Origin: Corynebacterium pollutisoli
GTDB lineage: Bacteria > Actinomycetota > Actinomycetes > Mycobacteriales > Mycobacteriaceae
Length of the DNA: 64,000 nucleotides
Direction of reading: 5' to 3'
NCBI RefSeq assembly: GCF_900177745.1
Contig: NZ_FXAR01000005.1
Coordinates: 1 to 64,000, forward strand
Shown: in pieces, positions 5,212-56,365 of the stretch
Position numbering within the stretch: position 1 is the stretch's first letter
Layout of the letters: every line of letters starts with the position of its first letter
The notes under the pieces: generated by a model
Databases searched by the model: none
What the model was told of the DNA's origin: nothing
What the model saw: the letters and a program-made list of their open reading frames with translations, nothing else
Made by a program: the position numbers and the translations under genes

Positions 5212-6645
5212 CTAGCCCCGAACCGGGGTCGTGGCCCACGTGTGGTGCTCGCGAGAGGCCTCCGCCACCCGCTCGCGCTGCTCACCGACGCGCACGCCGG
5301 CGGTACCGCCGCGCGTGGCCCGGGAGGCCACCGCGCCGTCGATCGTGAGGACCTCACGCACCGCCGGGGTCAGACGCTTATCGACGCCCGCCAGTTCCTC
5401 GTCCGTCAGATCGACCAGGCCGACGCCGCGGGACTCGGCGATGCGCACGCACGCACCGGAGGCCTCGTGGGCCTCGCGGAACGGCACGCCCTCGCGCACC
5501 ATCCACTCGGCGAGGTCGGTGGCCAGGGTAAAGCCGGCCGGGGCAAGCTCGCGCATGCGCTCCTCGTGGAAGGTCAGGGTGGAGACCAAGCCGGTCATCG
5601 CCGGGAGCAGCAGGTTGAGCTGGGCGACGGAGTCGACGATCGGCTCCTTGTCCTCCTGCAGGTCACGGTTGTAGGCCAGCGGCTGCGCCTTGAGGGTGGC
5701 CATGAGGCCGGTGAGGTTGCCGATGAGGCGGCCGGTCTTGCCTCGCGTCAGCTCGGCGACGTCCGGGTTCTTCTTCTGCGGCATGATCGACGAGCCGGTG
5801 GACCAGGCATCGGAGAGGGTGACGTACCCGAACTCCGGGGTGCACCACGCGATGATCTCCTCGGCCAGGCGCGACATGTCCACCGCGATCTGCGCGAGGA
5901 CGAACGCCGTCTCGGCGGCGAAGTCACGCGAGGAGGTCGCGTCGATGGAGTTGTCCGCCGCGGAGTCGAAGCCGAGCTCCTCGGCGATGGCCTCCGGGTT
6001 GAGCTTGAGCGAGGAGCCCGCCAGGGCGCCGGAGCCGTACGGGCTGACGGCCAGGCGCTTGTCCAGGTCGCGGATGCGCTCGAGATCGCGCAGCAGCGGC
6101 TGGGCGTGGGCCAGCAGCTGGTGGGCGAGCAGCACGGGCTGCGCGGCCTGGAAGTGGGTCTTGCCGGGCATGATCGCCTCCGGGTGGGCGGCGGCCTGGG
6201 CGACCAGGGCGTCGACAAGCTCGGTGACGCCGACGGCGATGCCGCGGACGGCGTCGCGCACCCACATGCGGAAGAGCGTGGCCACCTGATCGTTGCGGGA
6301 GCGGCCCGCGCGCAGGCGGCCGCCGACCTCCGGGCCGACGCGGTCGATGAGACCGCGCTCCATGGCCCCGTGGACGTCCTCGTCCGAGGGCTCGGGCCCG
6401 AAGCTGCCGTCGGCGACGTCGCGCCCCAGCTGGTCGAGGCCGGCGAGCATGGTCTCCAGGTCAGCGTCGGAGAGCAGGCCCGCGGAGTGCAGGACCTTGG
6501 CGTGCGCCTTCGACGCCAGGACGTCGTAGGGGGCGAGCACCCAGTCGAAGTGGGTGGACACGCTCAGGGCGAACATCGCCTCGGACGGGCCGCCGGAGAA
6601 CCGGCCACCCCACAGGGCACCTTCGTTCGTACCGTGCTGTTCCAT
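5212..6645 (-). CDS. argH: argininosuccinate lyase
   Basis: Last enzyme of arginine synthesis: splits argininosuccinate into arginine and fumarate. The fumarase/aspartase-superfamily signature [11 protein letters not shown] is present, with WGGRFSGGP near the N-terminus. The length of 477 residues is normal. The ATG directly abuts the argG stop. It is the last gene of the arg operon, and the next gene downstream has its own promoter in a 53-bp gap. Confidence 0.97.
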
Positions 6646-7848
6646 CTAGTTCGTCGCCTCGCGGTCACGCTTGTTGGCGATCTCCGAGGACAGGCCGTGG
6701 AGCTTGACGAAGCCCTTGGCCATGGTCTGGTCGAAGGTGTCACCGGTGTCGTAGGTGGCCAGGTTGAAGTCGTACAGGGAGTGGTTGGAGCGACGGCCGT
6801 TGACGGTGATGGAACCGGCGTGCAGCACGAGGCGGATGTCGCCGGTGACGTGCTCCTGGGTGGAGTCGATGAAGGCGTCGAGGGAGCGCTTGAGCGGGCC
6901 GAACCACAGGCCGTCGTAGACCTCCTCGGACCAGCGGGCGTCGACGAGGCGCTTGTAGCGGGCCAGCTCGCGCTCGAGGGTGACGTCCTCGAGGGCCTCG
7001 TGGGCCTTGATGAGGATCATGGCACCCGGGGCCTCGTAGATCTCGCGGGACTTGATGCCGACGAGGCGGTCCTCGACCATGTCGAGACGGCCGACACCCT
7101 GTGCGCCGCCGCGGCGGTTGAGCTCCTCGATGGCCTCGAGGACGGTGACGGGCTTGCCGTCGATGGCGACGGGCTTGCCGCCCTCGAAGGAGATGATGAG
7201 CTCATCCGGGGCGTTGCCCAGGGTCGGCTCCTCGGTGTAGGCGTAGATGTCCTTGGTCGGGGCGTTCCACAGGTCCTCGAGGTAGCCGGTCTCGATGGCG
7301 CGGCCCCAGACGTTCTGGTCGATGGAGAACGGGGAGGAGGCGGACTGCTCGATCGGCAGGTCGATCTCCTCGGCGAAGGCGATGGCCTTGTCGCGGGTCC
7401 AGGCGTAGTCGCGGGCCGGGGCGATGATCTCCAGGTCCGGGTTGGCGTTGCGGAAGCCGACCTCGAAACGGACCTGGTCGTTGCCCTTGCCGGTGCAGCC
7501 GTGGGAGACGTGGGTGCCGCCGTGCTCCTTGGCCGCCTCGACGAGGTGCTTGACGATGAGCGGGCGGGAGATCGCGGAGACCAGCGGGTACTGCTTCATG
7601 TACATGCCGTTGGCCTTGATGGTCGGCAGGCAGTACTCGTCGGCGAACTCGTCGCGGGCGTCGATGACGATGGACTCGACGGCACCGGAGTCGAGGGCGC
7701 GCTGGCGCACGGACTCCATATCCTCGCCGCCCTGCCCGAGGTCGAGGGACACGGCGACGACCTCGCCGCCGGTCATCTTGGCCAGGTACGGGATCGCGAC
7801 GGTGGTGTCGAGGCCGCCTGAGTAGGCGAGGACGACGCGTGCAGACAT
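6646..7848 (-). CDS. argG: argininosuccinate synthase
   Basis: ATP-dependent ligation of citrulline and aspartate. The N-terminal ATP pyrophosphatase loop AYSGGLDT is intact; other conserved blocks include [15 protein letters not shown] and [12 protein letters not shown]. 400 residues, as expected. A good ribosome site (AAGGAG) lies upstream of the ATG. The 53-bp gap from argR contains AT-rich sequence that could hold a second promoter, as some corynebacteria transcribe argG separately; I see no decisive box. Confidence 0.97.
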
Positions 7849-7901
7849 AGGGGGTTCTCCTTGGGTTTTGGTGTTACTGATTATTGAGGATACCGGGGGC
7901 T

Positions 7902-54529: not shown

Positions 54530-54557
54530 CCGACACCGTGCCGTAATGTGAACGGTC

Positions 54558-55475
54558 ATGACGACCACCCATCATTACCCCGCCAAGACGCCGCGCACCC
54601 CGCTGCACGTCCTGGCGAATGTCATCCGCGGCGGCCTCATCGGCATGGCGGAACTCGTGCCGGGCATCTCCGGCGGCACCGTCGCGCTTGTCGTCGGTAT
54701 CTACGAGCGCGCCCTCAACACCGGTAACCAGCTCCTGCGCCGTGAATTCGGCAAGGTGGACTGGGCGTTCCTCATCGCCGTCGGCGTGGGCATGGTCACC
54801 GCCGTGTTCTCCCTGTCCACGGTCCTGCACAACTTCGTGGAGAACTCCCCTGAGTACGCCCGCGCCCTCTTCCTCGGCATGGTCGCCGTGTCCATCTGGG
54901 TGCCGCTGGCCATGATGGACCCCCGTGACCTGCGCCGCCGGGTCGGCATGGTCATCCCGCTGTTCCTGGTCGCCGCGGTCGTCGGCTTCCTGGGCACCAG
55001 CTTCGTCTCCGCCCCGCGCGAGGATCCCGCCCTGCCGATCATCTTCGTCGCGGCGGCGGTCGCGGTGTGTGCGCTGGTCCTGCCGGGTATCTCCGGTTCC
55101 TACATGCTGCTGGCCGTCGGCCTGTACACGCCGATCATGGGCTCGCTGTCGAACCGCGAGTGGCCCGTCATCTTCACGTTCATGGCCGGCGCCCTGGTCG
55201 GTATCGCCCTGTTCGTCAAGGTCCTCACCTGGGCCCTGGAGAAGCACCGCACGATCACCCTGACCATCATGGCGGGCCTCATGCTCGGCTCCCTGCGTTC
55301 CCTGTGGCCGTGGCAGACCGCCGACGCGGACCTGCTGTCCCCGGGCGACAACGTTCTCCCGGTCATCGGTCTCATCGTGCTCGGCGGTGCCGTGGTCGCG
55401 ACGTTCATCATCGCCGACCGCGTGGCCACCACCCGCCGCGAGTCCGAGATCATCGCCACCGAGCAGCCGGCATGA
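54558..55475 (+). CDS. DUF368 polyprenyl-phosphate transporter
   Basis: 305 residues, polytopic. The two half-repeats carry PGISGGTVAL and PGISGSYMLL, the signature of DUF368 (PopT/UptA-like) proteins that recycle undecaprenyl phosphate across the membrane. TAATGT eight bases before the ATG suggests a leaderless promoter. Its stop overlaps the start of the binding-protein gene (ATGA), although the functional link is unclear. Confidence 0.88.
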   Translation: MTTTHHYPAKTPRTPLHVLANVIRGGLIGMAELVPGISGGTVALVVGIYERALNTGNQLLRREFGKVDWAFLIAVGVGMVTAVFSLSTVLHNFVENSPEYARALFLGMVAVSIWVPLAMMDPRDLRRRVGMVIPLFLVAAVVGFLGTSFVSAPREDPALPIIFVAAAVAVCALVLPGISGSYMLLAVGLYTPIMGSLSNREWPVIFTFMAGALVGIALFVKVLTWALEKHRTITLTIMAGLMLGSLRSLWPWQTADADLLSPGDNVLPVIGLIVLGGAVVATFIIADRVATTRRESEIIATEQPA

Positions 55476-56365
55476 CCGCCCGCCGCAGCCTCCTGGCGGC
55501 GGTGACGGTCGCGGCGTCGATAAGCATGTCGGCGTGTGTCACCAACGTCGAGGACGGCCACCCGGAGGGGTGGCAGCCGATCATCCCGGACGAGGTTCCC
55601 GAAATCGCGGCGCTGGTGCCGGATGAGGTGGCCGCCGACGGCGTGCTCACCGGCGGCGTCAACCCGCCGTTCGCGCCCTTCGAGCTCAAGGACTCCGACG
55701 GCACCATCATCGGCCTGGAGATGGACCTGGCGGCGGCCACCGCAGCCGTCATGGGTCTCGAGTTCCAGCCGGTGGAGCAGGACTTCGCCATGATCCTGCC
55801 CGCCGTGCAGGCCGGCACCCTCGACGCGGGCACCACGGGGCTGACGGACAACGAGGAGCGGCGGAAGAACTTCGACTTCGTCAACTTCCTCTACGCCGGC
55901 ATCCAGTGGGCGCAGCCGACGGGGTCCGACGTCGACCCGGCGCACCCCTGCGGTCTGACCGTCGCGGTGCAGCGCACCACCGTCTCCGAGACCGACGACG
56001 TCCGCCCCAAGTCCCAGGCGTGTGAGGAGGCCGGGGATGACCCCGTCACCGTCCTGTCCTACGACACCTCCGACAACGCGGCGCTCGCCGCGCTCATCGG
56101 GCGTGCCGACGCCCTGTCCGCCGACTCCCCCGTCACCGCCTGGGCCGTCTCGCGTTCCGACGGCCGCCTGGAGCTCACCGGCGACATGTTCGACGCCGCC
56201 CCCTACGGCTGGGCCGTGCCGAAGGACTCCCCGCTGGGCCCGGCGATGGCCACCGCGTTGCAGCACCTCATCGACACCGGTGACTACGAGCGCATCCTCG
56301 CCCAGTGGGGCGTGACCACCGGTCTCATCGACCGCGCCATGATCAACGAGAAGGAGATCGCATGA
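55472..56365 (+). CDS. amino-acid ABC transporter binding lipoprotein
   Basis: 297 residues. Lipobox SMSACVT (Cys about residue 22). Type-2 binding protein: NPPFAPFELKD, GLEMDLAAATAAVMG, TGLTDNEERRKNFDFVNFLY and PYGWAVPKDSPLGPAMATALQHLI. Polar amino-acid (Glu/Gln/His-like) ligand. It is the first of a three-gene operon with the permease and ATPase. A copy of CGTCGATAAGC sits in its signal-peptide codons. Confidence 0.92.
   Translation: MTARRSLLAAVTVAASISMSACVTNVEDGHPEGWQPIIPDEVPEIAALVPDEVAADGVLTGGVNPPFAPFELKDSDGTIIGLEMDLAAATAAVMGLEFQPVEQDFAMILPAVQAGTLDAGTTGLTDNEERRKNFDFVNFLYAGIQWAQPTGSDVDPAHPCGLTVAVQRTTVSETDDVRPKSQACEEAGDDPVTVLSYDTSDNAALAALIGRADALSADSPVTAWAVSRSDGRLELTGDMFDAAPYGWAVPKDSPLGPAMATALQHLIDTGDYERILAQWGVTTGLIDRAMINEKEIA

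Follow-up and report, generated by a model that had tools for sequence, protein, structure and literature searches.

We analysed a stretch of 64,000 nt from Corynebacterium pollutisoli (contig NZ_FXAR01000005.1, positions 1-64,000 of the forward strand; hereafter the window, from the genome coded G000), in which the 11-mer CGTCGATAAGC recurs on both strands. With moderate confidence we predict, from sequence comparisons, that the wider motif to which this 11-mer belongs, CRTCGNNAAGC, works like the DNA uptake sequences (DUS) of Neisseriaceae and the uptake signal sequences (USS) of Pasteurellaceae. We word the prediction as "works like" because membership of the DUS/USS class rests on function. 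To our knowledge, uptake tags are otherwise familiar from two Gram-negative families alone, and among the matches listed by our searches of open-access literature, no title or abstract opening dealt with uptake sequences in Corynebacterium, nor any title listed for the motif itself with uptake or a genomic motif in this genus.

In the following, CGTCGATAAGC is called the canonical form and CRTCGNNAAGC the degenerate motif, and the control is the motif read backwards. Other genomes are coded G001 and so on, sampled stretches carry L numbers, and C5 is a contig of G000.

Abundance and dialects of the motif

The 12 exact copies of CGTCGATAAGC reported for the window by the initial annotation were all recovered with the same first bases, eight of them on the minus and four on the plus strand, and the 10 copies of CGTCGACAAGC were present as claimed. 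Far fewer than one exact copy was expected, as had been estimated: dinucleotide shuffles of the window gave 0.03, and Markov models of order 3 and 4 gave 0.034 and 0.13, respectively. Models of order 5 and 6 gave the higher values of 1.4 and 5.1, because they already hold pieces of the motif. All the 12 CGATAAGC 8-mers of the window sit within full 11-mers. The base after the last C, said to be always a purine, was a purine in 12/12 window copies and in 47/50 copies of a larger G000 sample that includes the window. Only the size of the family had been underestimated: the listed copies are there, and the window holds 45 copies of the degenerate motif in total.

In the whole G000 genome (2.54 Mb) we counted 322 copies of CGTCGATAAGC, 162 forward and 160 reverse, and none of the control; the degenerate motif had 1,637 copies (control 78), that is one per 1.55 kb. 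De novo word counting in a 464-kb sample of this genome gave 108 copies of CGTCGAGAAGC versus 3.1 expected, 51 of CGTCGACAAGC versus 1.6, and 50 of CGTCGATAAGC versus 0.22, the last being the order-3 Markov expectation, which the genome-wide frequency of the canonical form hence exceeds by far.

The degenerate motif was written down after inspection of 12 genomes, and the remaining genomes of the genus were used as the test set. We divided 242 same-genus genomes into three classes according to the ratio of copies to control. The ratio was higher than 5 in 180 genomes (242-2,032 copies, median 1,135), between 2.5 and 5 in 12, and not higher than 2.5 in 50. There was no comparable excess in 140 genomes from 30 further genera of this family; when one genome per genus (the first) was taken, the ratio was 0.25-1.81, and the highest value that we noticed was about 2.7 (G338). 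At the level of single loci, aligning the pilus ATPase gave as best named match a 21-kb locus of a Corynebacterium metagenome-assembled genome, which carried 18 degenerate copies and none of the control, whereas five loci, from Rhodococcus, Nocardia, Mycolicibacterium, Mycobacteriaceae and Dietzia, carried none. Of the 80 loci listed by a scan with TadA, two bore a Corynebacterium name.

Related genomes carry the motif, often in the form of a dialect; the initial annotation had made its proposal depend on conservation of this kind. The preferred form is CATCGGCAAGC in G001, CATCGACAAGC in G004 and CGTCGTCAAGC in G005, and CATCG prevails over CGTCG by 46 to 4 in G001 and by 42 to 7 in G004. Among orthologous tad/com genes of motif-positive genomes, copies were found at the same codon in 102/518 comparisons versus 0.7 at random positions, a count inflated by the choice of permissive peptides. 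Comparing genomes with the A dialect (G001, G004) and genomes with the G dialect at about 10 shared codon positions (21 genome-pair comparisons), we found the second motif base to be A in one and G in the other in 18/21 cases, and in 15 of these it was the sole difference.

We also inspected the flanks of copies between genes, 57 in six genomes. Upstream, G is frequent (44 copies at position -2, 36 at -4 and 33 at -11), and a purine follows the motif in 51/57; beyond such single-base preferences the copies share no flank. The G maxima of these copies, at around -2 to -4 and at around -11 to -12, are separated by about one helical turn.

Selection on DNA and orientation of the copies

For the test of coding constraint, synonymous codons were exchanged across the genes of each sample, so that all proteins were preserved. 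After this shuffle the coding copies of CGTCGATAAGC fell from 26 to 1.8 in G000 and from 72 to 2.3 in G009; likewise, CGTCGAGAAGC fell from 106 to 13.3 in G000 genes and CATCGGCAAGC from 17 to 0.8 in G001 genes. These shuffles, together with the existence of rival dialects such as CATCGGCAAGC, show that it is the DNA and not the protein which is under selection, as the initial annotation had argued.

Coding and intergenic copies were told apart by gene calls from a codon-usage script, which are rough. In the G000 sample, about 13% of which is non-coding, 22/50 canonical copies were intergenic, versus 2/108 copies of CGTCGAGAAGC; the canonical copies were intergenic in 2/14 cases in G002 and in 2/12 in G003. 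In G000 it looks as if AT or AC is preferred at the centre where no protein stands in the way, with the coding copies varying at NN. Copies lie antisense rather than sense to the gene by 142 to 103 in G000 and by 142 to 58 in G009, with no strong trend in their position within genes; according to the accessible text of PMC2346458, one preferred coding orientation has also been reported for known uptake sequences.

With the contig start taken as the origin, we compared the two replichores. G009 had 47 forward and 53 reverse copies on the right half and 59 and 66, respectively, on the left half, hence no bias; G001 and G013 showed no bias to speak of, and the one side of G010 that was sampled had 28 forward and 31 reverse copies. 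Pooling G009, G001, G004, G013 and the right-half stretches of G010, 220/472 copies were forward on the right or reverse on the left.

Neighbouring copies tend to alternate in orientation. We compared the number of opposite neighbour pairs with that obtained by label shuffles and by a variant of these in which the gene orientations were kept. Precisely, in G000 181/271 pairs were opposite, versus 140.1 (standard deviation, sd, 8.0) and 134.4 (sd 8.2) in the two tests, respectively, and in G009 131/206, versus 107.0 (sd 6.9) and 95.2 (sd 7.1). None of the comparison words reached the value of the motif (0/165 in G000 and 0/31 in G009). Eight further genomes, when pooled, had 203/344 opposite pairs versus 176.4 (sd 8.4; p 0.0006); taken singly, G001, G004, G013 and G014 showed no alternation (0.46-0.53; 17-64 pairs each). 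In pair correlations, there was a deficit of same-orientation relative to opposite pairs at distances up to about 1.5 kb, and it was strongest below 200 bp. This same-strand repulsion suggests a polar signal for which the two strands are largely independent.

The motif is sparse in atypical DNA. In the tenth of 5-kb tiles with the lowest guanine plus cytosine (GC) content, a tile had on average 1.56 copies in G000 (n = 9) and 0.62 in G009 (n = 8), versus 2.6-3.8 and 1.75-3.6, respectively, in the other bins. Seven phage-terminase loci, found in 4/53 genomes searched, held 3 copies in 23.6 kb, where the average densities of these genomes would give about 13.

Proposed role in uptake and its alternatives

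The mechanism that we propose is as follows. A predicted receptor, located on the Tad/Flp competence pilus or acting with ComEA, would bind the motif, and this binding would lead to preferential import of own-kind DNA. Copies would then accumulate by molecular drive, because uptake and recombination would involve motif-bearing DNA more frequently, and the dialect fixed in each lineage would be the one that its receptor prefers. The signal would be polar, each copy serving the DNA on one of its sides, so that copies would repel each other mainly on the same strand.

The machinery for such a process is widespread in the genus. We found comEC in 241/242 genomes and the TadA family PF00437 in 80/80, and each of 18 tad and 13 com loci had matches to TadA, TadB/C, Flp, TadE, TadF, ComEC and ComEA, those of a distant group being weaker. 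For its transformation Micrococcus luteus, likewise an actinobacterium, requires the tad genes alongside comEA and comEC, according to the accessible text of PMC4322843, and tad together with comEA/EC is described as common in actinobacteria in that of PMC6370729.

Among known systems, the USS of Pasteurellaceae resemble the motif in density (about one per 1-2 kb), in equal forward and reverse counts, in a near-zero control and in the preference for one coding orientation. As a positive control we counted AAAGTGCGGT in 247 genomes of a Vibrio's order: 12 genomes had 840-2,437 copies and the rest at most 44. The DUS of Neisseriaceae are, like the motif, non-palindromic, 10-12 bp long, present in thousands of copies and divided into dialects by lineage (PMC3630211, in its accessible part); they build up in core DNA and have an atypical density in mobile elements (accessible parts of PMC3630211 and PMC7371117). 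The motif differs from the DUS in its sequence, in that the genomes here have Tad/Flp pilus genes, in the pooled alternation and in the rarity of close inverted pairs. The Tad/Flp-dependent transformation of M. luteus belongs, like the motif, to an actinobacterium with comEA, comEC and tad genes; the main text of PMC4322843 contains neither the term 'uptake sequence' nor the term 'uptake signal'. HIP1 of cyanobacteria is likewise a short motif over-represented genome-wide; it is palindromic and the present motif is not.

Several observations weigh against uptake as the explanation. An intergenic excess, a trait of known uptake sequences, was confined to the canonical copies of G000: CGTCGNNAAGC had no such excess in this genome (41/279 copies intergenic), and canonical copies elsewhere were intergenic in 16/89 cases in G009 (20% non-coding), 0/16 in G013 and 1/17 in G010. 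Close inverted pairs, another such trait, were rare, only 13/867 neighbour pairs being less than 30 bp apart; one paper estimates, in its accessible part, that about 10% of uptake-sequence copies form such pairs, which are not defining in all families. The USS, for their part, had an opposite share of 0.37-0.55 for pairs at least 100 bp apart and no significant alternation in 4/4 USS-rich genomes (100 kb each, smaller samples), so that the motif is not a classical uptake sequence in that respect; the USS-rich genomes G416 and G491 lean toward alternation (p 0.08-0.20). G004 (L054-L058, L113, L120) shows a replichore lean, with 14 forward and 26 reverse copies on the right, 16 and 8 on the left, and thus 42/64 one way. 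We considered the A/G exchange in place as support and not as proof, because the exchanged base is a silent third codon position (antisense frame) and the genome GC content, which it partly follows, pushes the same way. A 7-kb piece named C. urealyticum had no copy of the motif. Moreover, two mobile regions that are also poor in the motif were chosen for their lack of canonical copies, and their counts have to be read in that light: 40 kb of G009 (L036-L037; relaxase, Mutator transposases, Cad transporter) had 2 degenerate copies versus about 22 expected, and an island on C5 of G000 (type I restriction-modification system, transposases) had 4 in the sampled 24.7 kb versus about 16.

The competence genes add to these points. 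No gene tracking the motif was found among comEC, PF00437, the tad/com neighbourhoods and PF12705, all of which occur with and without the motif. One protein family, presumably resembling a DedA-type membrane protein, was present in 7/7 motif-positive tad loci and in 2/11 others. Moreover, comEC was split, had an inner stop, or gave a short match or none in 9/80 genomes (G000, G229, G091, G014, G024, G097, G129, G124 and G185), whose motif counts ranged from about 2 to 21 times the control with no clean relation; the stops in G024 and G097 may lie near the gene end. The stop in the G002 match is the gene's own end, and a multi-stop comEC in G131 was discarded as a candidate, the gene having 483 amino acids and no inner stop. 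In G000 itself comEC is split after ...SAVSGVN by a 37.7-kb island (C5, about 172,410-210,147; L014 from 6,411, L015 to about 11,120) carrying HsdM, HsdR and transposases, which may be a mobile element silencing competence. Competence-silencing mobile elements in com genes occur elsewhere.

The main alternative is a Chi-like signal, read in one orientation by an AdnAB/AddAB-type helicase-nuclease which, while resecting a broken end, would switch to recombination at the motif. Chi sites and the FtsK-orienting polar sequences (KOPS) resemble the motif in being short, asymmetric, over-represented and polar. Orientation-specific recognition would require each strand to have its own spaced copies, so the same-strand repulsion is as expected for such a polar signal; the sparseness in mobile DNA and the lean of G004 also fit, and the nuclease family PF12705 occurs in 75/75 genomes, with matches that include frames of about 1,000-1,200 amino acids, which we take to be AdnAB from their length. 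Studied Chi sites show a replication-oriented bias, yet neither G009 nor the five pooled genomes had a replichore bias, PF12705 is also present in motif-negative genomes, and the Chi sites known to us are shorter than this motif with its 11 bp, unconstrained NN centre and G-rich flank on the upstream side. We regard this alternative as unlikely; if it were correct, the result would be surprising too, namely a Chi of unusual length and neutral orientation. KOPS have a strong leading-strand bias, and a segregation signal of this kind was rejected, since of the genomes tested G004 alone leans. The motif could also be the binding site of a protein that organises the chromosome, be it nucleoid-associated, looping or of the Noc-like, division-site kind, the alternation then pairing convergent sites. 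The same-strand spacing, the alternation and the genome-wide, strand-neutral spread agree with it, as does the fact that L036-L038 of G009, nearest the presumed terminus, hold 0, 0 and 2 canonical copies, two of these stretches being wholly or in good part mobile DNA. Such a protein would fit poorly with about 1,100 sites whose dialect switches between species and which are absent in 50/242 genomes of the genus, and we consider it rather improbable.

The two remaining alternatives deserve almost no credence. The motif could be a by-product of common peptides and codon pairs (Val-Asp-Lys or Leu-Ile-Asp, for example), and in fact two frames, GTC GNN AAG and CTT NNC GAC, account for most of the coding copies; this is refuted by the protein-keeping shuffles, and the quantity of intergenic copies and the zero count of the canonical form read backwards speak against it as well. 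That it derives from a dispersed repeat or a transposable remnant would account for hundreds of copies, but their flanks have nothing in common beyond single-base preferences, the dialect changes in place and the copies repel each other on the same strand. Among the roles named in the initial annotation, uptake fits best and Chi-like recombination stays a rival, and both segregation and an old repeat are set aside. Its likeness to a DnaA box was not supported either: boxes of the TTATCCACA type cluster at the origin, and the TTATCGACG copies are dispersed across the genome in hundreds, which would be unlike an origin box.

Going back to uptake, we put forward a more specific version tentatively, as a claim on which we would not yet rely. 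The motif would be the first actinobacterial uptake sequence, a polar one with one-sided import and with independent spaced sets on the two strands, evolved independently of Neisseriaceae and Pasteurellaceae and served by a Tad/Flp pilus; within the genus it would have formed dialects, been lost repeatedly and, in at least one case (CGCGRCGTCAT, a single species), been replaced by a different motif. Were this correct, a genomic watermark for the recognition of self-DNA would have arisen a third time, in a phylum whose natural transformation is little studied. It would also predict which species of the genus transform and by which tag, with a bearing on gene exchange, and it would offer a direct route to the Tad-pilus DNA receptor, the alternation being a clue to the direction of import.

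As for the losses, in a tree of TadA (a single gene, 38 members of the genus) the motif-positive tips fell in two clades, interspersed with motif-negative ones, and one separate group consisted of seven motif-negative tips; several forks are weak. This tree suggests that the motif was probably lost repeatedly in the genus. The replacement comes from the motif-negative genome G012 (whole genome; L064-L068), whose own motif CGCGRCGTCAT, unrelated to the present one, numbers 644 copies versus 6 of its control; in none of the other 61 genomes searched did it exceed the 42 copies of G014. Its G form numbers 16 versus 0.5 after the synonymous shuffle. Word counts in 10 other motif-negative genomes (40 kb each) and in G007 (100 kb) gave nothing clear in most cases. 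Three minor word signals are noted: an unclear one in G206 (76% GC); in G043 (L095-L096), likewise unclear, a family of recurring words around AGAACGACGATCGCGA in 40 kb, perhaps a further motif or a repeat of local extent; and in G010 (L071, L072, L084) 14 copies of AACACGAACAC in 60 kb versus 0.04 expected.

Copies in the window

The canonical copies on the minus strand are at 5376..5386, in a gene with Lyase_1/ASL_C2 matches (argH-like), at 18397..18407, running across the end of the trmH-like SpoU methylase gene as described in the initial annotation, and at 22370..22380, 23819..23829, 37065..37075 (adjoining uvrB), 39214..39224, 44274..44284 and 47950..47960 (in polA). Those on the plus strand are at 19411..19421, 33967..33977, 42146..42156 and 55515..55525. 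The four copies starting at 33967, 37065, 39214 and 42146 are intergenic, and the two starting at 22370 and 55515 force the rare codon ATA in frame, both in agreement with what had been described.

The variant CGTCGACAAGC is found on the plus strand at 6210..6220, 11025..11035, 15180..15190, 20437..20447 (intergenic), 25569..25579, 44708..44718, 48079..48089 (in polA) and 60618..60628, and on the minus strand at 30779..30789 and 41558..41568. CGTCGAGAAGC is on the plus strand at 3731..3741, 8273..8283, 12321..12331, 26198..26208 and 30995..31005, and on the minus strand at 8159..8169, 9379..9389, 12234..12244, 18104..18114, 31166..31176, 35119..35129 (in uvrB), 39432..39442 and 51687..51697. 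The other variants on the minus strand are CATCGGCAAGC at 1163..1173, CATCGTCAAGC at 7548..7558, CGTCGTGAAGC at 15930..15940, 41674..41684 and 62793..62803, and CGTCGGCAAGC at 23482..23492 (intergenic). Finally, CGTCGAAAAGC occurs at 14919..14929 (plus) and 57793..57803 (minus), and CGTCGGGAAGC at 16133..16143 (plus) and 30734..30744 (minus).

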